37,264 nucleotides of DNA. Source: an uncultured Solobacterium sp. (GTDB taxonomy: Bacteria > Bacillota_I > Bacilli_A > Erysipelotrichales > Erysipelotrichaceae). The stretch's first letter is position 1. The number at the start of each line of letters is the position of its first letter. The DNA is taken from the NCBI GenBank assembly GCA_946415785.1, contig CAMKTV010000010.1, forward strand, positions 1 to 37,264, read 5' to 3'. Below are positions 4,204 through 19,999 of the stretch, piece after piece. Below the pieces are notes generated by a model. It did not search any database. It saw only the letters and a program-made list of their open reading frames with translations, and was not told the origin of the DNA. Both the position numbers and the translations under genes were made by a program.

Positions 4204-4279
4204 GCGCCTATAGCTCAATGGATAGAGCGTTTGATTCCGGTTCAAAAAGTTGTAGGTTCGATTCCTATTAGGCGCTCCA
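4204..4279 (+). tRNA. tRNA-Arg(CCG)
   Basis: Acceptor GCGCCTA pairs with TAGGCGC, discriminator T, encoded CCA (4277-4279). The anticodon stem TTTGA/TCAAA encloses TTCCGGT, giving anticodon CCG (reads CGG). The T-loop has GTTCGATTCC. Only two bases separate it from the dut stop codon, and no promoter of its own is evident, so its 5' end is likely cut by RNase P from the dut message. Confidence 0.95.
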
Positions 4280-4289
4280 TGAGATAATT

Positions 4290-4314
4290 AGTCTTGTTAA
4301 ACAAGACTTTTTTA
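4290..4314 (+). terminator. Terminator after dut/tRNA-Arg
   Basis: AGTCTTG (4290-4296), loop TTAAA, CAAGACT (4302-4308), followed by a T-run. Confidence 0.88.
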
Positions 4315-4349
4315 TTTTATTGAAAGATATAAAATGAATAAGGGAAATT

Positions 4350-5375
4350 ATGTTTAAAGTAAGCACAAGAATTATCCTTATAGGGTTAATAGTTATAGCG
4401 GCAATAGGCCTTTTGATATCGGACTTTCATCTATTCGATAATAAAAGTAGCAGTGAGATTGTATTTAATAAATTAGATAATACACAAGAATTGCTTGCTA
4501 ATATTGTTAATTGGAATGATGATAGTGTAGAAGTTATTGTAAATAATAAAGTGAATAATACTATTTTTCCAAAAGGCAGCAAATTAACAGTTTTGTTTAA
4601 TGATGAAACAAGGTTCATTGATGTTGATGGTACAATCATTAATTATGATTCTAAAAGATCAATCTTTAAACCACAAATAGAAAACATTCTTAAATGGTCC
4701 GAAGGTGCTGTTATTCAAATAGAATTTGATTATTATGAAGATTATATAGAAACTGCTAATTCTGAAAATCACATAATAGGAAAAGCTATAGAGTATGCTG
4801 ATGTGCTTGCTTATAGCCCAATAGTTGAAGGAATAGAAAACTATGATAAGTATTATTTTATTAAAATATATAAAGGCGATCTTGATTCAAATCTTTCAAT
4901 ATTTCCTGATAATAAAAAAATGTTGAATAGTTCAATATTCAAATCTTATCTGCAAGAAGATTTATTCAATATTTCAGGTTACATATTATTGGATGCATAT
5001 TATAGCGCTGAAGAATATTCAAAAGAAGTAAAGCGTTTAAAAGACATTAGTATTACTATTCATGAATCATGCAGAAATGATTCTAAAAAATATGTAAATA
5101 TTATTAAATATGATGATAGTTCTTATGATTATCCATCATACATAACAATTGATGGTTTTGCTGGAAAATATGAATACGCTTTACTTAATGAAAAAGAAAA
5201 TAAAATTACATATTTATATTTAGCATATCCAGACATTAATAATAACAGCTATAACAAGTATTTAAAAAAAGAAAAAAATAACTACACTCAAAATGATTCA
5301 TTAAAATCATTTTCTATCTATAATCACAGTTTTGATAATGGAAAATCATTTAATGAAGTTGATGATTGTGAATAA
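4350..5375 (+). CDS. Membrane-anchored extracytoplasmic protein, unknown
   Basis: 341 residues. A single hydrophobic segment at about 8-24 (ILIGLIVIAAIGLLI) with basic residues ahead of it indicates an uncleaved N-terminal anchor; there is no lipobox. The remaining ~315 residues are hydrophilic, rich in Asn, Tyr, Asp and Lys, without Cys clusters or recognisable catalytic motifs. The N-terminal third alternates short hydrophobic and polar runs (SVEVIVNN, SKLTVLFND), suggesting beta-structure. A GGGAA lies four bases before the ATG, so a leader exists. It follows the dut/tRNA terminator and has its own transcript. I do not recognise the family. Confidence 0.75.
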   Translation: MFKVSTRIILIGLIVIAAIGLLISDFHLFDNKSSSEIVFNKLDNTQELLANIVNWNDDSVEVIVNNKVNNTIFPKGSKLTVLFNDETRFIDVDGTIINYDSKRSIFKPQIENILKWSEGAVIQIEFDYYEDYIETANSENHIIGKAIEYADVLAYSPIVEGIENYDKYYFIKIYKGDLDSNLSIFPDNKKMLNSSIFKSYLQEDLFNISGYILLDAYYSAEEYSKEVKRLKDISITIHESCRNDSKKYVNIIKYDDSSYDYPSYITIDGFAGKYEYALLNEKENKITYLYLAYPDINNNSYNKYLKKEKNNYTQNDSLKSFSIYNHSFDNGKSFNEVDDCE

Positions 5376-10292: not shown

Positions 10293-10457
10293 ATGAAATC
10301 ATTATTTGAAGAATATGGATTTGTGATGATTGCGGCTATTGTTGTAGTTGCATTACTTGTAGTCGGAACTGGTTTAACATCTGTTTTTGACCAAGATGTA
10401 AACAACGTAATGAGCGGCATTAGTCAAAAAGTACAAGATAACATAGATCTACCATAA
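10293..10457 (+). CDS. Flp-like major pilin candidate (54 residues)
   Basis: ATG at 10293 with AAAGGAG (10281-10287) five bases upstream; stop at 10455-10457. The protein begins MKSLFEEYGFVMIAA, followed by a hydrophobic helix to about residue 30 and a short amphipathic tail (QDVNNVMSGISQKVQ). Size and layout match Flp1-like type IVb pilins of Gram-positive Tad loci: short N-terminus with Glu just before the hydrophobic helix. However, the usual Gly cleavage site before the Glu-Tyr motif is missing. First gene of the operon and directly upstream of the ATPase gene, where Tad systems place the abundant pilin. Three other small proteins in the operon share its N-terminal motif. Confidence 0.72.
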   Translation: MKSLFEEYGFVMIAAIVVVALLVVGTGLTSVFDQDVNNVMSGISQKVQDNIDLP

Positions 10458-10471
10458 TAAGGAGGTAACAG

Positions 10472-11563
10472 ATGGCATTAGAAGTTAAAGAGGAATTATT
10501 TAAAGAATTATGGCCCTATATCGTTGATGATGATGTGACAGATATAAAATGGAATGGTTCCGCATTATGGCTTACTGATTTAAATAAAGGAAGATATGTT
10601 GAAGATATAAAACTATCTGATGAATGGCTACAGATTTTCACTAATTTAGTTGCTAATTCGGTTAATGAAAACTTCAATATTTCCAAGCCTTCTTTACAGG
10701 CTGAAACGGATGAACTAAGAATACAAGCTGTTCATAATAGTGTTTCAGGCAATAATGCCATCTGCTTAGCCATTCGTAAAACGCCGCCCTGTGCAAGACT
10801 TCTAAAACAGGATCTTTTAAAAAGCGGCTACGCGAGTGAATTTGTATTGAAACTGTTGCCTTGTTTAATGCGTGCAAGATTATCAGGTGTAATAACTGGA
10901 GATGTTGGTGCAGGAAAAACAGAATTAGAAAAATACTTATGTTGTTTTATTCCTAATAACGATCCAATTGTAACTGTTGAAGATACACTGGAAATGAAAT
11001 TAAAAAGTCTATATCCTCAAAAAGATATTTATTCATTAAAGATATCAGACAATTATTCCAATGAACAGGCCATCAGAGATGCTTTAAGATTAAACACTAA
11101 GTGGCTCATCATATCAGAATCAAGAGGAAGAGAAATATTAAGAATTATTGAAGGCGCATCTTCGGGCTGTGTTGCCCTGACATCAATTCATGCAGAAAAT
11201 GTATGGGAAGTCCCTGACCGCATTTTAAACATGGCAGGAGATAATGCCAGAACAGGACTTGAAAATGATATTTATACTTTCTTTGATTACGCAATTAAAG
11301 TCAAAGCAGAATATTCTAATACAGGCGTCAAAAGAAGTATAGATCAAATCTGTTTCTTTGATCGCAAAGATAAAAATAATATATGCAAGATTATTCTAAA
11401 AGATGGAAGTCCACAAAAGACAATGATACCTGAAAGAATATATAAGAAATTCTATGAGAATAAAGAAAAAGAATTTATCAATGCGTATATTGATTTTCTA
11501 AAAGAAGATAGAAAGGTTGATTTAATTAACGATGAAAAATATATTAAAGAGATACAGTATTAA
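10472..11563 (+). CDS. Tad-like secretion ATPase (CpaF/TadA family)
   Basis: 363 residues; an ideal AAGGAGGT sits at 10459-10466. Belongs to the VirB11/CpaF group of hexameric ATPases that drive pilus assembly from the cytoplasm. Seen: an N-terminal domain (1-115), Walker A GDVGAGKT (143-150), Asp box VTVEDTLEM, a Walker B-like WLIISESRGREI with the catalytic Glu at about 216, and the His box ALTSIHAEN (His 240). The usual GEVRG of CpaF reads SESRG here. The N-terminal region is shorter than in proteobacterial TadA and there is no extra FHA part. About 32 bases overlap the next gene, suggesting translational coupling. Confidence 0.88.
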   Translation: MALEVKEELFKELWPYIVDDDVTDIKWNGSALWLTDLNKGRYVEDIKLSDEWLQIFTNLVANSVNENFNISKPSLQAETDELRIQAVHNSVSGNNAICLAIRKTPPCARLLKQDLLKSGYASEFVLKLLPCLMRARLSGVITGDVGAGKTELEKYLCCFIPNNDPIVTVEDTLEMKLKSLYPQKDIYSLKISDNYSNEQAIRDALRLNTKWLIISESRGREILRIIEGASSGCVALTSIHAENVWEVPDRILNMAGDNARTGLENDIYTFFDYAIKVKAEYSNTGVKRSIDQICFFDRKDKNNICKIILKDGSPQKTMIPERIYKKFYENKEKEFINAYIDFLKEDRKVDLINDEKYIKEIQY

Positions 11564-13028
11564 AGAAATTAAAAATGATATACAAAAATATGGTTTTAAT
11601 TATCACACCAAAGATTTTCTGATTGAAGCTTTTGTGCTAATGGCCATTGTAATCTTTATCGCTTATATTTCTCATCTTAAATTTCAATATATTTTAGTTT
11701 TATTATTATTGACCATTCTTTTGATTCCAACATTGATTAGTTCCTGGTTTAAACAGAATTATAATATTAAGCGCTTTTCTCTTTTGACAGAATATCTGAC
11801 TAATATCATTCCTATTTTTGTCCAAAAGACAAAGATACGTTTCTGTCTAGGTGAATTGTTTGATATTACAAGCGGACATATGAAAGAAACAATTAAAAGA
11901 GCTATTGATTATATCGATAATACTGTTGATGATCCTGATTTACATAAAAATGCCTTAAAGATAATTGAAGAAGAATATCCCAATTCTCGTGTTATTTCAG
12001 CACATAAGATTTTACTCAGTATTGAATCAGCCAATTCACTTTCCTATGAGGGCGTATGTGCCAATATGTATGAAGACATTGAGAAATGGGTAAAAAGAGT
12101 CTATACATTCCAAAAAGATTTAAAGAACAGAAGAGGCAAATTATTAATATTATGTGTTGCAGCACTTTTCATGAACAGCATATTAGTCTATTTATATTCA
12201 ACAAGTTCTTTCTTAAGTGATTTTGTCTATGAACCTGTTTATCAGATATCGACATTGATATTTATCGCCAGTGTTTTAATCACGATTACAGTTGTATTAA
12301 CTAAACTTCATGGTGAATGGTTAATCAATGATACTGAATATTTAGATGATGAATATTTAAAAAAGAAATACCAAAGATATAAGAAAGGGAAGCCTGTCAT
12401 CAAAGCTATTAATATCATTATCTTTATATGGATTTTATTGACAGGTGCTTGTTTCTTCTATTTAAAGAAAGCATTATTTGGAACAGTTATCTGTCTATAT
12501 GCTTTTATTATTCTGTTTAATCCATTTATCAGATATAAATCTACATCTAAATATCTGTCAAAAGCACTCACAATAGAATTTCCTGTATGGCTTAGAGAAA
12601 TATCATTAAATTTAAATAATTATACAGTTTTAAACGCTATTGAATATTCACAGAATATGGCATCTTATCCTTTAAGAAAAGAAATCAGAAAATTTTTAAA
12701 TGAAGCTAAAAAAGATCCAACATCAGTTAAGCCCTATAATAATTTTTTAAATGAATTTGATTTAGAAGATGCGAAAGCCAGCATGAAAGTTTTATATGCG
12801 ATAGGCAATATTGGAAAAGAAGATGTTTCCAAAAGAATATCAAATCTGATTGTGCGCAATCAAGAAATGTTAGACAAAGCAGAAACAATTAGAAATGAAG
12901 ATTCCATAGGAGGCATTGAATCAATTGGCTATGTTCCTATCGTCTTATTAACAGGACAAATGTTAGTAACGATGTTTTCAATGTTTTCTTTTATCATGGC
13001 AAATATCTCTCAGGCAATTAATATATGA
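11532..13028 (+). CDS. Fused TadB-TadC-like pilus platform protein
   Basis: 498 residues. Hydrophobic segments at about 31-47, 52-70, 204-223, 239-257, 292-311, 313-332 and 467-490 flank two soluble cytoplasmic blocks (75-200 and 335-465). That is the pattern of two type II secretion F (T2SF) modules in tandem. Tad loci normally encode two separate platform proteins, TadB and TadC, of about 300 residues each; this single, more compact polypeptide appears to do both jobs. Role: inner-membrane platform on which the ATPase turns pilin subunits into a fibre. It overlaps the ATPase gene by 32 bases and the next gene by ATGA. Family assignment rests on topology and position; motif identity is low. 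Confidence 0.72.
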   Translation: MKNILKRYSIKEIKNDIQKYGFNYHTKDFLIEAFVLMAIVIFIAYISHLKFQYILVLLLLTILLIPTLISSWFKQNYNIKRFSLLTEYLTNIIPIFVQKTKIRFCLGELFDITSGHMKETIKRAIDYIDNTVDDPDLHKNALKIIEEEYPNSRVISAHKILLSIESANSLSYEGVCANMYEDIEKWVKRVYTFQKDLKNRRGKLLILCVAALFMNSILVYLYSTSSFLSDFVYEPVYQISTLIFIASVLITITVVLTKLHGEWLINDTEYLDDEYLKKKYQRYKKGKPVIKAINIIIFIWILLTGACFFYLKKALFGTVICLYAFIILFNPFIRYKSTSKYLSKALTIEFPVWLREISLNLNNYTVLNAIEYSQNMASYPLRKEIRKFLNEAKKDPTSVKPYNNFLNEFDLEDAKASMKVLYAIGNIGKEDVSKRISNLIVRNQEMLDKAETIRNEDSIGGIESIGYVPIVLLTGQMLVTMFSMFSFIMANISQAINI

Positions 13029-13432
13029 GAATAGTAGTTAGAATATTTGGCTTAACAATCATTGGTGTATTAGTAAGTATTACAATAATTCATACTTTCA
13101 GTATCAATATTCATCTTGATGAATTAGAAAAGATCAGTTCATTAGCGATGAGTAATACTCAAATTGTGATGCAGGAAGCAATTGAAGATCGCCTGTTTGG
13201 CACAAACAATGCCAGAAGAAAAATTGAAAGTGATGAAGAATACATCGCTTTATATAAAGATAATCTGAATAAATTAATCGGTACAGAAAGCGAATATAGA
13301 ATAGCAGATTATTATGTTGATTATTATAAAGGCTTAATATATGTGGATGTAATTTGTGAATATAAAACTTTGTTTAAAGAAACAAAATATCTGGAAAAGA
13401 AATTAATAAATATTATTGATGTGATTGAATGA
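13025..13432 (+). CDS. TadE-like minor pilin/pseudopilin candidate
   Basis: 135 residues. One hydrophobic segment near the N-terminus (about 7-26, IFGLTIIGVLVSITIIHTF), then a soluble domain ending in a hydrophobic-charged alternation (YKGLIYVDVICEYKTLF). Topology matches TadE/TadF-like minor pilins, though no cleavage motif is visible. The residues after the membrane helix (LDELEKISSLAMSNTQIVMQEA) are probably a continuation of the helix. Starts in the ATGA overlap with the platform gene and ends in an ATGA overlap with the next, so it is translationally coupled on both sides. Confidence 0.6.
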   Translation: MRIVVRIFGLTIIGVLVSITIIHTFSINIHLDELEKISSLAMSNTQIVMQEAIEDRLFGTNNARRKIESDEEYIALYKDNLNKLIGTESEYRIADYYVDYYKGLIYVDVICEYKTLFKETKYLEKKLINIIDVIE

Positions 13433-14778
13433 TGAAAAGAATAATAAAGATTATATTTATATGTGTATTATTAATATTATTTGATAAGCCTGTTTTTGCG
13501 CAAATACAGTTGCCTTTAGGATATAGTGAATGGGACATCATCAGTAACAATGATGAAAATGAAATAAGCGCCATTCAATATGGAAGGATGTTACCAAAAC
13601 AGTGGTCTGCGTATCAAAGTGAAATACCAGATACACCATATTATAAAGTTGGTGAAAAAAAGACATTGCATTATGCTTATGAAGATTTTGATAAAAAACA
13701 TTTCTGGCAAGATGCAGATGAAAAGGTTTTATTCACTTGGGACTTTAAAGAAAAATCAAGGATAACATATTTCTATGCGGATGTAGATGCATATGTTAAA
13801 GAAACATATGACAAATATATTGGCCCACCATTAAGACTGTATTGTGATGGCAAACTAATAAGCAGCATTAAAGAACATGATTGTTTAAAAAACTGGAATC
13901 CTGAAATAGATTGCCAGTGTACTCTATTACAGTTAGAAATGAAAAGTGCTAACAGCAATGGCAGAAATGAGACATGTATTGTAGGTACCTGGGCAATAAC
14001 ACAGGTCGATCAATATAGCTATGTAGTTTCATGGAACGAAGGAAGTGACTGGCGCTTTGATAAAGAATATGAACATCTCTATGGCGAAGATAGCCAGATT
14101 CCAACCCAAAGAACAGTTTATTCTCATCCAATAATTTATAACATCTATTATGATTTGGATGGAGGAGAGTTATTAGAAGAAGCCAAAAATACATATACTG
14201 TCTTACAAGAAGTGAAACTGCCTTCAGCCAAAAAGAAAGGACATGAATTTATATCATGGCTTAAAGATGGAATAGAAATATCAGAAATAAAAAAAGGAAA
14301 TTATGGCGATATCTATTTAAAAGCCAGATATGAAAGAAAAAATCCTAATATATCTGCAGGATATGTCTATTTTGATCAAGATGATAAGTTCATAAATATT
14401 GATGAATTATTAATATTAGTCAAAGCACAAGCTACTGATGAACTTGATGGAGATATCAGTAAAAATATAATTGTCGATTATATTGATTATGAAGTTGATG
14501 GAAAAATCAGAAGGCCATCATATTTAGATATCAGTAAGGCACAAAATGTTGAAATCAGTTTTTCAATAATCAACAGTGGTGGCAAGAAAGCCAATATAAA
14601 AAAGAATTATTATATTTTAGGTAAAGGGCAACAGATAGATTCTTTAGATGATATAAAGATTTATTCTCGTTTTATAAAAGAAGAATATCAAGATACTTTA
14701 GATATAAATTCTATTTGGAGGCAAAGTACCTATCAGGAATCATTAAAGAGCGCTTTTGAAAAAGCGAAAGGAGATTAA
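13429..14778 (+). CDS. Secreted protein with InlB/Flg_new-type repeat, pilus-associated
   Basis: 449 residues. A cleavable signal peptide (basic MMKRIIK, hydrophobic core, PVFA|QIQ) exports it. Residues about 25-230 form a Tyr/Trp-rich domain I do not recognise, including CIVGTWAITQVDQYSYVVSW. Residues about 236-304 match the small repeat found in InlB and many Firmicutes surface proteins (YYDLDGGELLEE ... GHEFISWLKDG ... YLKARYE). Residues about 320-400 look like an Ig-like domain (ATDELDGDISKNIIVDYID). There is no LPXTG or C-terminal anchor. Located between the TadE-like gene and the small pilins in one operon, it may be an adhesin or tip protein of the pilus; that role is inferred from position. 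ATG at 13429 or 13432. Confidence 0.7.
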   Translation: MMKRIIKIIFICVLLILFDKPVFAQIQLPLGYSEWDIISNNDENEISAIQYGRMLPKQWSAYQSEIPDTPYYKVGEKKTLHYAYEDFDKKHFWQDADEKVLFTWDFKEKSRITYFYADVDAYVKETYDKYIGPPLRLYCDGKLISSIKEHDCLKNWNPEIDCQCTLLQLEMKSANSNGRNETCIVGTWAITQVDQYSYVVSWNEGSDWRFDKEYEHLYGEDSQIPTQRTVYSHPIIYNIYYDLDGGELLEEAKNTYTVLQEVKLPSAKKKGHEFISWLKDGIEISEIKKGNYGDIYLKARYERKNPNISAGYVYFDQDDKFINIDELLILVKAQATDELDGDISKNIIVDYIDYEVDGKIRRPSYLDISKAQNVEISFSIINSGGKKANIKKNYYILGKGQQIDSLDDIKIYSRFIKEEYQDTLDINSIWRQSTYQESLKSAFEKAKGD

Positions 14779-14925
14779 ATGCGTAGATTGTTTTCAAATT
14801 ATGGATTGTTTATGTTGGCATCATTATGTAGCTTTTTAAGTTTAAATATCTTCTTTAAAACATTATCTGTTAATCAATATTCAATTTATGAGATTATCAA
14901 GGTCTGGATTAATACATTGATATGA
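14779..14925 (+). CDS. Small pilin-like protein (48 residues)
   Basis: ATG at 14779 preceded by AAAGGAG. Sequence begins MRRLFSNYGLFMLASL, followed by a hydrophobic helix and an amphipathic tail (YEIIKVWINTLI). Shares the 'R/K-x-L-F-x-x-Y-G-x-x-M-L' start with the proteins at 10293, 14922 and 15666. Its stop overlaps the next start (ATGA at 14922). Too short for most gene finders. Probably a minor pilin or assembly factor; inferred from motif and operon position. Confidence 0.65.
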   Translation: MRRLFSNYGLFMLASLCSFLSLNIFFKTLSVNQYSIYEIIKVWINTLI

Positions 14926-15359
14926 AAAGATTGTTTGAAGAATATGGTGATGTAATGTTGTCAGCCACAATTTCCATTATTATTGTCTTGTTGTTTGTAG
15001 GCACAATAATAACGACATTATTGAATCAAAATATAAAGATCTTAGGTGAAAATACTGTTCAAAGTATTACATATAAGGCACAAGGTAAAATCGGTATTAG
15101 GACATTTAAGGCAAAAGATATTTTGATTAAACAAGGAGAAGAAATAAACTATCTAGATCGTATTGAAGCGATGAATAATCGTGGTGATTATGGCGGAAAC
15201 GATGAAGACATTAGAAGTTATGTCACTATTTATAATCAGATTGACAATAATGAAATAGGCGAAAAAGAAATAATATATGCATTAAGATATAATGGACAAA
15301 CGCAATTTTTAAAAGCTAAATTAATAGTGATTGGAGAAGAAGATGAAAACAACAATTGA
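14922..15359 (+). CDS. Minor pilin with 'LFEEYG' N-terminus (145 residues)
   Basis: Starts MKRLFEEYGDVMLSATISII, nearly the same first nine residues as the 54-residue Flp-like pilin, then a hydrophobic helix to about residue 34. Unlike the others it has a ~110-residue soluble domain: AQGKIGIRTFKAKDILIKQG, an acidic/Gly stretch, and alternating beta-like segments near the end (EIIYALRYNGQTQFLKAKLIVIG). This fits a minor pilin with a globular head exposed outside. ATGA overlap with the upstream small pilin and a 17-base overlap with the next gene. Confidence 0.7.
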   Translation: MKRLFEEYGDVMLSATISIIIVLLFVGTIITTLLNQNIKILGENTVQSITYKAQGKIGIRTFKAKDILIKQGEEINYLDRIEAMNNRGDYGGNDEDIRSYVTIYNQIDNNEIGEKEIIYALRYNGQTQFLKAKLIVIGEEDENNN

Positions 15360-15669
15360 ACATACTGCCACAATGATTGTCATGTTTATACTGGTTTTTC
15401 TTTTTACTTCCATCATGACAATAGGCTTACAGATTCTTGATGCACGCCTAATACATACCAGTGGAATAGAAAGATTACAATCATCTTATTACAATGTAAG
15501 CATTGATGAATTAAATGAAGAATTAAAAGAAGGCTGGTATTTTGAAATAAAAGAATTGTCTTCTATAAATACAAGAAAGGATTATGAAGTAGCATTAAAT
15601 TACAGAATTGAAATACCTTTATTTAATGCGACAAGTTTTAAAGGAAGAATAGTAGGTTACGCAAGATGA
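15343..15669 (+). CDS. TadE-like minor pilin candidate (108 residues)
   Basis: Start at ATG 15343, with GGAGAA (15333-15338) upstream; an in-frame TTG at 15331 lies too close to that site. Begins MKTTIEHTATMIVMFILVFLF, a hydrophobic helix, then about 80 soluble residues (LIHTSGIERLQSSYYNVS ... ALNYRIEIPLFN). Pattern is that of TadE/TadG-type minor pilins, with Glu at position 6 just before the helix, as Glu5 in type IV pilins. Its stop overlaps the next ATG (ATGA). Confidence 0.62.
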   Translation: MKTTIEHTATMIVMFILVFLFTSIMTIGLQILDARLIHTSGIERLQSSYYNVSIDELNEELKEGWYFEIKELSSINTRKDYEVALNYRIEIPLFNATSFKGRIVGYAR

Positions 15670-17942: not shown

Positions 17943-17980
17943 ATTAATTGGTCTTATTGGTTTAATAATATTAATAAATG

Positions 17981-17986
17981 TATAAT
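17981..17986 (+). promoter_or_regulatory. -10 box of the murT-like gene, leaderless arrangement
   Basis: TATAAT, six bases (TTAACT), then ATG at 17993. Predicted first base of the mRNA is the A of the ATG. A weak -35 (TTGGTT) lies 18 bases upstream. This also decides the start: the in-frame ATG at 17978 would be upstream of the promoter box. Confidence 0.6.
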
Positions 17987-17992
17987 TTAACT

Positions 17993-19309
17993 ATGAAAAA
18001 AATGTTGGCTATATTAGTATGTAAGGGATTAAGAGCTATTGGGAAGCTTGTAGGCAAAGGCTCAAGTTTACCTGGCAAGTATGCTTTAAAAATAGATAAG
18101 AATATTTTAAGCAAGATTAAATATCCTAAATATGTTGTCGCAGTAACTGGCTCTAATGGAAAGACATCTACTGTTGAGATGATTAAAGCAGTTTTAGAAA
18201 ACGCAGGTTTAAAAGTTATTTATAATTCTGAAGGTTCAAATCAAATTGAAGGCGTTACAACTTTCATTCTAAATGCTGCTAATCTTAAAGGTGAATTAAA
18301 AGCTGATGTGGTATTGATGGAATCAGATGAAAGATACGCAAGGCTGACATTTAAGCATTTCACCCCAAGCCATTATGTGATTACTAATCTATATCGTGAT
18401 CAACTCACAAGAAATGGTCATCCAGAATGGATATATAAAATCATTCAAGACAGCATTCATCAAAATTGTGAACTGATTTTAAATGCTGATGATCCATTAA
18501 TTAATTCATATAAGAGTGATAAGTGTATTTATTTTGGTTTAGAACGTTATGATGAATCAAGTGAAGAAAATCGTTTTATTTATAACGATTGTACATATTG
18601 TCCAAAATGTGGCAAACCACTTCATTATGACTATTATCATTACAATCATATAGGAAAATATGAATGTGAATATTGTGGATATAAAAGAAATGAACCACAA
18701 TACAAAATAACTGATGTTGATTTAGATGAAGGAAGATTAACAATAGATAGAAAGTATCAGATTAATTTAGCCTTAAAGAGTATTTATAATGCTTATAATA
18801 TCTTGGCAACATATGCATTAACTAGACAATTAGGGATTAAACCTGAAATCATAACTGAAACATTAAATAATTATATTCTTAAAAATGGTAGAGTACGTTT
18901 ATTTAAAATAGGTGATAAAGAAGGAACATTGTTGGCTTCTAAACATGAAAATTCTGTTTCCTATAACCAATCATTAATGGTTGTAAGAAGATATAAAGGA
19001 GAAGCGACTGTATTCATCATGGTTGATGCCATCAGCAGAAAATATTTTACTAGTGAAACATCATGGCTATGGGATATTGATTTTGAATTCTTGAATAGTC
19101 CAAATATCAAAAAGATTGTCATAGCTGGAAAATATACAAGTGATGTCGCTGAAAGATTACTATATGCAAATATTAATCTGGATTTAATTCATATTGAAAA
19201 AGATATCAGTAAGGCTGTTAATTATTTAGGAAAAGAAGCAATTGGACACATATTTGCGATAACTTGTTTTTCTGATCAGGATAAATTATTAAAGAGGGTT
19301 GAAAGATAA
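17993..19309 (+). CDS. murT: MurT-like Mur ligase with divergent catalytic region
   Basis: 438 residues. MurT, with GatD, normally amidates the alpha-carboxyl of D-Glu in lipid II at the inner face of the membrane. Seen: Mur-ligase P-loop VTGSNGKTST, MES-DERY, the NLYRDQL motif, a four-Cys zinc ribbon (CPKCGKPLHY and CEYCG) specific to MurT, and the C-terminal domain with ETSWLWDIDFE, whose Asp belongs to the composite active site in known MurT/GatD. Oddities: the loop usually reading like KNPxGxNQ is LASKHENSVSYNQ here, and the NDN-ADG-D-VSWIWD stretch is replaced by VDAISRKYFTSETSWLWD. The partner gene follows with no gap. Assignment to the MurT family is firm; the amidation reaction is not (see findings). 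Confidence 0.85.
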   Translation: MKKMLAILVCKGLRAIGKLVGKGSSLPGKYALKIDKNILSKIKYPKYVVAVTGSNGKTSTVEMIKAVLENAGLKVIYNSEGSNQIEGVTTFILNAANLKGELKADVVLMESDERYARLTFKHFTPSHYVITNLYRDQLTRNGHPEWIYKIIQDSIHQNCELILNADDPLINSYKSDKCIYFGLERYDESSEENRFIYNDCTYCPKCGKPLHYDYYHYNHIGKYECEYCGYKRNEPQYKITDVDLDEGRLTIDRKYQINLALKSIYNAYNILATYALTRQLGIKPEIITETLNNYILKNGRVRLFKIGDKEGTLLASKHENSVSYNQSLMVVRRYKGEATVFIMVDAISRKYFTSETSWLWDIDFEFLNSPNIKKIVIAGKYTSDVAERLLYANINLDLIHIEKDISKAVNYLGKEAIGHIFAITCFSDQDKLLKRVER

Positions 19310-19999
19310 ATGAAGATATTACATCTATACCATGACTTATTAAACCTATATGGCGAATATGGCAATGTCGTTGTTTTAAAAAAACACCTGGAAGATCAGG
19401 GATTAGAAGTTGAACTTGTTTTAAAAACTATAAATGATGATTTTGATTTTGATGATTATGACTTTATATATTGTGGAAGTGGTTCTGAAAGCAAGACCTT
19501 GAAAGCACTTGAAGATTTGTTAAAAAGAAAAGAGTCATTATTAAAAGCAATCAATCACAATAAATTATTCTTATTCACTGGTTCAGCAATGGAACTGCTA
19601 GGTGAAAAGATTAATGAAAAAGAAGCTTTAAATATTGTTCCAATAAAATCAACATTTACAGATAAAAGATATACTGGTGATGTAATTGCAAGTAATCCTG
19701 AAATAGGTGAAGTAGTGGGTTTTATTAATAAATGTTCAATTATTTCTCAAAATGAAGATATCAAATTATTCGATTATATCTTTAAACAAAAAGGAATAAA
19801 TGATAATAAATATGAAGGCTATAAATATAAAAATGTTTATGGCACACATATTATTGGGCCAATACTTGTTAAGAATCCAAACTTTATGGGACTGATAGTA
19901 AAACAGCTAGTTGGTGATAAATATCAGGAAATTAAATATTCATTTGAAGAAGACAGTTACAAAGTAACTTTAAATGCTTTAAAAGAAAGAAACAAATAA
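19310..19999 (+). CDS. gatD: GatD-like glutaminase-fold protein lacking catalytic Cys and His
   Basis: 229 residues, the normal GatD length, starting directly after the murT-like stop. The N-terminus (MKILHLYHDLLNLYGEYGN) and the overall order are GatD-like (class I glutamine amidotransferase fold). In active GatD the nucleophile lies in a turn like ICGGYQLLG; here the same place reads FTGSAMELLG (89-98), with Gly91 where Cys should be. The catalytic His, usually in GTYLHGPxLPKNP, is replaced: GTHIIGPILVKNP (178-190) has Ile182 there. The GGGQD pocket reads CGSGSE. So glutamine hydrolysis by the known mechanism is unlikely. It may still bind MurT as a structural or substrate-binding subunit. 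Alternative: a variant mechanism using Ser92 or His180. Confidence 0.8.
   Translation: MKILHLYHDLLNLYGEYGNVVVLKKHLEDQGLEVELVLKTINDDFDFDDYDFIYCGSGSESKTLKALEDLLKRKESLLKAINHNKLFLFTGSAMELLGEKINEKEALNIVPIKSTFTDKRYTGDVIASNPEIGEVVGFINKCSIISQNEDIKLFDYIFKQKGINDNKYEGYKYKNVYGTHIIGPILVKNPNFMGLIVKQLVGDKYQEIKYSFEEDSYKVTLNALKERNK

Follow-up and report, generated by a model that had tools for sequence, protein, structure and literature searches.

A MurT/GatD-like pair without the glutaminase residues: a candidate amino-acid ligase of peptidoglycan precursors in Bacillota

The stretch of DNA analyzed here (the window; 37,264 nucleotides of contig CAMKTV010000010.1 from an uncultured Solobacterium sp.) carries a murT-like gene followed, with zero gap and on the same strand, by a gatD-like gene (Table 1). 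The initial annotation had the frame of the first gene right but began it at 17993, some codons after the ORF start at 17978. Pfam domains Mur_ligase_M and MurT_C were detected in the MurT-like protein and GATase_3 in the GatD-like protein. The window is contig 10 of the host's draft genome (1.37 Mb, 88% complete), which encodes a single MurT. The window pair, the only pair scored in this way, reached 228.4 bits against NCBIfam model NF045635 (cut-off 800) and 94.3 bits against NF045636 (cut-off 400), and with both equivalog cut-offs missed its assignment to ordinary GatD by family match was rejected. Elsewhere in the window (10472-15669, plus strand), a gene for a T2SSE-family ATPase precedes ORFs devoid of Pfam domains and short membrane-anchored ORFs, an arrangement reminiscent of operons for pili or competence.

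Table 1 Genes and residues of the MurT/GatD-like pair in the window. Dead GatDs lack both the catalytic Cys and the catalytic His.
Feature	Position	Strand	Basis
murT-like gene (443 aa), encoding Mur ligase middle and MurT_C domains and a zinc ribbon	17978..19309	+	ORF list, Pfam, alignment
MurT P-loop TGSNGKTS, residues 57-64, kept	18146..18169	+	alignment
MurT zinc ribbon C208-C233, kept	18599..18676	+	alignment
MurT loop SKHENSVSYNQ (S321-Q331) replacing KNPxGxN	18938..18970	+	alignment
MurT loop DAISRKYFTSE (D350-E360) replacing DNAADGRD; E360 at the Asp349 position	19025..19057	+	alignment
gatD-like gene (229 aa), encoding a protein of class I amidotransferase fold that lacks the catalytic Cys and His	19310..19999	+	ORF list, Pfam, alignment
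GatD E60	19487..19489	+	Glu in 97% of dead vs 0% of ordinary GatDs
GatD nucleophile elbow T90-G91-S92-A93-M94-E95, with G91 where S. aureus has Cys94	19577..19594	+	alignment
GatD R120 (R128 in S. aureus)	19667..19669	+	kept in 96% of dead GatDs
GatD I182 at the His189 position	19853..19855	+	alignment

Alignment to solved chains bore out what had been read from the sequence about the active sites, namely that the GatD catalytic Cys is gone (Gly91 lies opposite S. aureus Cys94), that the catalytic His is gone (Ile182 lies opposite S. aureus His189) and that the glutamine-pocket motif of solved GatDs, GGGSD or GGGQD, is replaced by CGSGSE. The oxyanion loop of GatD is altered. The same held for MurT, in which the ATP site and zinc ribbon are retained (P-loop and all four zinc-ribbon Cys) and the KNPAGMN loop of solved MurTs is replaced by one two residues longer. 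The alignment added a further loss: the DNAADGRD loop is replaced by DAISRKYFTSE, so that Glu360, still acidic, occupies the place of S. aureus Asp349. This Asp is described as the third triad residue, inactive when changed to Asn (excerpt of PMC6113224), and an Ala mutant at the equivalent position of S. pneumoniae MurT had reduced, not abolished, activity (excerpt of PMC6085368). N88 and D117-E118, the counterparts of the MurT Asn and Asp-Glu with acceptor-site roles (PMC6085368), are kept, and R120, the counterpart of the Arg that holds glutamine in S. aureus GatD (R128; excerpt of PMC5871853), is retained in 96% of the dead GatDs described below. No conserved replacement Cys or His was found among 152 dead GatDs, the best columns holding 48% Cys and 32% His, and another Cys/His pair in the active site was rejected. 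Judged by these residues, it is virtually certain that the glutaminase activity has been lost, as predicted.

From loci L001-L261 we collected 228 distinct GatDs, of which 152 lack both catalytic residues (dead), 75 have both (ordinary) and one has the Cys but has its end cut off; Gly takes the place of the Cys in 147 dead sequences. The dead sequences came from loci of relatives (47), named loci (80), further loci of named genomes (3), Actinomycetota (2) and a survey of the window's family (20), and the 76 with Cys from relatives (11) and Actinomycetota (65). MurT was present in 51 of 101 relatives; all 42 GatDs examined from the window's genus lack both residues, and 16 from other genera divide into 11 ordinary and 5 dead. 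For the named loci, the 80 best among 378 relatives were retained, and all of their 84 GatDs lack both residues; because the scan pattern included TGNAME, 80 of the 152 dead GatDs are partly selected, the other 72 not. Hosts of the named loci include, by title, Clostridia, Oscillospiraceae, Lachnospiraceae, Erysipelotrichaceae, Tissierellia and Coriobacteriales, among others.

Dead and ordinary sequences fall on two sides of one branch both in the MurT tree (141 and 63 sequences, support 0.93) and in the GatD tree (152 and 76, support 0.88). In trees built from a random draw of about 110 earlier sequences and every new one, which brought in Clostridia and 25 Eubacteriaceae-type sequences, supports were 0.998 (MurT) and 0.994 (GatD); MurT L250 and GatDs L007 and L373, which carry a scripted 'ordinary' label inside the dead clade, are regex artefacts. 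The KNPxG motif is present in 63/63 ordinary MurTs and in 0/141 dead partners, a count that leaves aside 18 of 222 MurTs with no GatD near enough to label them (15 with ordinary motifs, 3 without). Residues fixed in the dead GatD branch are E60 (97%), T90, N92, E95 (91%), I101 and Y217, and those lost comprise an oxyanion Gly, D194 and the E-x-H of ordinary enzymes. Dead MurTs have gained P50 and N146, and their counterpart of the RDQxDRxGE loop has lost its second Asp and its Glu. Such changes look like a rebuilt site. With GatDs (152 versus 76) and their MurT partners split alike, new residues fixed and the Arg kept, the sequences indicate that the dead pair is a large and old branch rather than a product of decay.

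The split is imperfect in Clostridia, where four GatDs (L353-L356, from G624, G686, G584 and G667) lack the Cys beside an ordinary-type MurT and lie outside the dead clade. Three of the four also lack the His, and the MurT partners read KNPAGFNQ, or KNSMGLNQ in L355; these four are candidates for ammonia-dependent amidases. An otherwise ordinary GatD (L320, G635) has Gln at the His position (YAQGS). A tandem of dead pairs is found in each of the Frisingicoccus loci L077 and L088, where the second MurT is short and has no zinc ribbon.

Within the window's family MurT was found in 143 of 195 genomes, 46 of them dead-type, 95 ordinary and 2 unclear by score and match range (G478 and G496 were left unclassified), GatD itself being examined in 38 of the dead-type genomes and roughly one tenth of the ordinary ones. 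No genome of the family had both pair types among the matches listed, outside which lay a second match of G556. Two or three copies occurred in 11/46 dead-type genomes, and two copies in 1/95 ordinary genomes. An ATP-grasp ligase family, ATPgrasp_ST (PF14397), co-occurs with dead pairs: matches above the cut-off were present in 28/30 dead-pair genomes of the family (all but G014 and G049) and in 0/24 ordinary ones. By genus the figures were 8/9 and 0/23 (Fisher p = 9e-7), genera not being independent either. Genomes without MurT also had the gene, in 6/6 of a genus that is probably Erysipelothrix (g59) and in 1/2 others. In a Clostridia-centred set it was detected in 25/40 dead and 5/40 ordinary genomes, or in 23/40 dead genomes without G649 and G719, which pass only through summed pieces in frames of 310-321 aa that we take for Ddl. 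In the window's own genome the gene lies on another contig (C60, L294), downstream of a transporter-like gene and of an ORF whose repeats, by eye, resemble PASTA domains.

MurE adds residue 3 of the peptide stem, and motif-to-residue rules relate its specificity motif to that residue. In the window's family the motif was DDPR in nine of ten ordinary genomes and DDSR in the tenth, as against 12 dead genomes with DDPR in one, EDPR in five and other motifs in six; HDNR occurred in 5/5 genomes of g59. In the family of the probable Acetobacterium woodii, all eight ordinary genomes had DNSR, and 13 of 16 dead ones had a DNPA copy, the other three differing. By such rules, these motif shifts suggest that dead and ordinary pairs go with different wall chemistry. 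The window's genome also encodes a second MurE-like ligase besides the main MurE (G000:C51:2445-3788, L304), as do G001, G003, G008 and G028, with scores of 192-232 bits, below the TIGR01085 cut-off.

Gene neighbourhoods were uninformative in most of the dead loci examined. ATPgrasp_ST lay near the pair in 23/146 dead and 0/76 ordinary loci, wide flanks being available for 76/146 and just 8/76, respectively. It was flanked by two dead pairs in both L100 and L105, one of those in L105 being of the window's type. An EctB-type diaminobutyrate aminotransferase adjoined the dead pair in 6 of the 80 named loci (the best 80 of 378 relatives), and two of these neighbours scored 574.6 and 573.6 bits against TIGR02407 (cut-off 552.2). 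No EctB above the cut-off was found in 62 genomes of the window's family, and EctB as a general partner was rejected. In G617 (Clostridia), an ornithine-racemase-like gene overlaps the gatD of a dead pair; at 408.7 bits against a cut-off of 480, its identity as Orr is not assured. In G649 the dead pair lies in an operon with mnmA, glmM and glmS, an arrangement shared by G719. These linkages to amino-acid supply and wall genes (EctB, the racemase-like gene, glmM-glmS) belong to lineages other than that of the window.

The occurrence of dead pairs was compared with that of group-B peptidoglycan, which the initial annotation had connected with such pairs. MurT was present in 77/156 Clostridia. 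A third dead type (IKQENP in MurT, VTGT in GatD) was found in G649, a probable A. woodii, and dead pairs also occur in probable Eubacterium limosum. The wall of A. woodii is of group B. By score, the 40 genomes of its family (in whose list G617 does not stand) comprised 28 with this third dead type, 8 ordinary and 4 without MurT; two of the eight ordinary ones had an additional weak match, and GatDs examined in 30 loci were dead in 22 and ordinary in 8. For Eubacterium, both type A and type B 2-alpha are given in a review (excerpt of PMC11382707), and E. limosum peptidoglycan is described as containing Ala, Glu, Lys, Orn and Ser (excerpt of PMC4791908). The overall picture is mixed, as two other groups speak against the proposed connection. 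No MurT was detected in 11 of 12 genomes of g59, so that, if this genus is Erysipelothrix, a group-B wall can arise without a dead pair; G507, the remaining genome, carries a dead pair immediately followed by ATPgrasp_ST. In Actinomycetota, 65 of 68 GatDs examined have the Cys and three are of the dead kind, one of them partly covered. Dead GatD is therefore not a universal mark of group B, and the proposition that it marks group B everywhere was rejected. One g59 genome (G504, L292) carries two ATPgrasp_ST genes within 16 kb (4249-5244 and 10368-11411), with a gene taken as murI, for glutamate racemase, upstream (1847-2602).

Taking these observations together, we lean modestly towards reading the pair as an ATP-dependent amino-acid (carboxylate-amine) ligase that acts on a peptidoglycan precursor and represents an ancient MurT/GatD branch devoid of glutaminase. 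The suggestion that an amino acid is joined instead of ammonia, with GatD as the binding subunit, finds partial support in gene context and residues, the reaction itself being inferred. EctB beside 6 of the 80 named loci, the racemase-like gene beside one pair, the co-occurrence of ATPgrasp_ST, the MurE motif shifts and the retention of the amino-acid-holding Arg with newly fixed acids speak for it. A ligase would also fit one branch in both trees, co-diverged partners and two or three pairs in some genomes. Less favourable to it are the ammonia-dependent amidation by an S. aureus mutant discussed below, the mostly MurT-less probable Erysipelothrix (11/12) and ordinary actinobacterial GatDs (65/68), the lack of EctB in the window's family (0/62) and of a telling neighbour at most dead loci, and the two Eubacteriaceae genomes with an ordinary pair and a second weak match.

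Ordinary MurT amidates the alpha-carboxyl of D-Glu. The dead-branch MurT would convert the same carboxyl, as the kept acceptor residues suggest, into an acyl phosphate, and the attacking amine would come from an amino acid rather than from ammonia, as suggested by the replaced MurT loops, the amino-acid supply genes near some pairs and the presence of more than one pair in a genome. In GatD, the pocket once used for glutamine (R120 together with E60 and E95) may bind or position that amino acid or complete the site. The added residue would be a group-B-like cross-bridge or its start, with the ATPgrasp_ST ligase probably adding a further residue or running a parallel step. Its identity probably depends on lineage, diaminobutyrate being the candidate beside EctB and D-ornithine beside the racemase-like gene. 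With slightly more doubt than belief, we extend this to a general proposal, again from sequence comparison, in which many Bacillota and some Coriobacteriia would use this branch as the tRNA-free builder of their group-B bridge at the D-Glu alpha-carboxyl. It would unite a Mur-type ligase with a glutaminase subunit turned amino-acid-binding, be present one to three times per cell and be coupled to ATPgrasp_ST, with EctB or the Orr-like racemase as lineage-specific additions.

The strongest rival is an ammonia-dependent lipid II amidase that would form D-isoglutamine from free ammonia, with GatD as a scaffold, in ammonia-rich gut, rumen or digester habitats. It owes this rank to S. aureus MurT/GatD-C94G, which has the same Cys-to-Gly change and is reported to amidate with NH3, in a GatD-requiring manner, at pH 8.5 but not at pH 7.5 (excerpt of PMC3266927), the latter result counting against the idea as the former counts for it. 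Many named records are titled as gut, rumen or digester bins, and the Clostridia GatDs L353-L356 lost the Cys independently beside an ordinary-type MurT, as the rival would allow. Against it, the MurT loops have changed too, with two extra residues, in 141/141 dead partners, and plain amidation would not lead one to expect genes for amino-acid supply, another ligase family alongside or more than one pair in a genome; we consider this explanation unlikely, if a serious one.

We regard as improbable a ligase for another amine, such as a diamine, or for a different carboxyl of the wall precursor. Cadaverine or putrescine is found on D-Glu in Selenomonas and Veillonella walls. Another amine would fit the glutaminase loss equally well and could be bound by the fixed acids E60 and E95, but the gene neighbours point to amino acids, and the acceptor-side residues are as in ordinary MurT. 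That the pair is a decayed, inactive relic of ordinary MurT/GatD is highly improbable: three catalytic residues are gone and the second MurT of the L077 tandem lacks the zinc ribbon, but ATP and acceptor residues are invariant and new positions fixed across more than 140 sequences, and the pair is often the sole MurT of its genome. Simple decay was rejected, as 152 sequences carry newly fixed residues.

To our knowledge, no enzyme has been identified for the group-B bridge. Among open-licence PMC papers we found neither such an enzyme nor a description of glutaminase-less MurT/GatD as a group; PMC12786226 shows a phylogeny of MurT from Erysipelotrichales and credits MurT with the amidation, GatD being unmentioned in the excerpt. 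If the preferred amino-acid ligase reading is true, the dead pairs would provide the first candidate genes for this bridge and an example of a glutaminase turned non-catalytic subunit, and those annotated as lipid II isoglutaminyl synthase would be misnamed. Wall type would become predictable from genomes, including those of many uncultured gut bacteria, through a TGN elbow, the absence of HGP and a MurT without KNPxG.

Among described enzymes, MurT/GatD, the lipid II isoglutaminyl synthase (6gs2 from S. aureus and 6fqb from S. pneumoniae; NF045635, NF045636), shares with the window pair its fold, domain order and operon, as well as the ATP site, acceptor-side residues, zinc ribbon and glutamine-holding Arg of GatD. 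It differs in having Cys94, His189, Asp349 and the KNPxG and DNAADGRD loops, all lost or replaced in the window pair, whereas the dead branch forms a separate clade with newly fixed E60, T90, N92 and E95. The archaeal pseudomurein ligase pMurC (6vr7), the fourth best distinct solved relative of the window MurT, is likewise a MurT-like ligase with a zinc ribbon and is annotated as a peptide ligase, not an amidase; the window protein scores 109.7 bits against its model NF053645, below the cut-off of 560, and has gatD adjacent, whereas the excerpted text of PMC11915815 describes archaea with only the MurT-like protein and no GatD. The amino-acid-adding ligases MurE and MurF have the acyl-phosphate mechanism and the Mur middle domain in common with the window MurT but use UDP precursors, act at the growing stem end and have no GatD partner. 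Finally, the D-aspartate ligase Aslfm of lactobacilli and enterococci has a fold unlike MurT and acts on the Lys side chain rather than on D-Glu, but it adds a bridge residue in a tRNA-free, ATP-dependent manner and is an ATP-grasp enzyme, as is the product of the dead-pair partner gene (PF14397).
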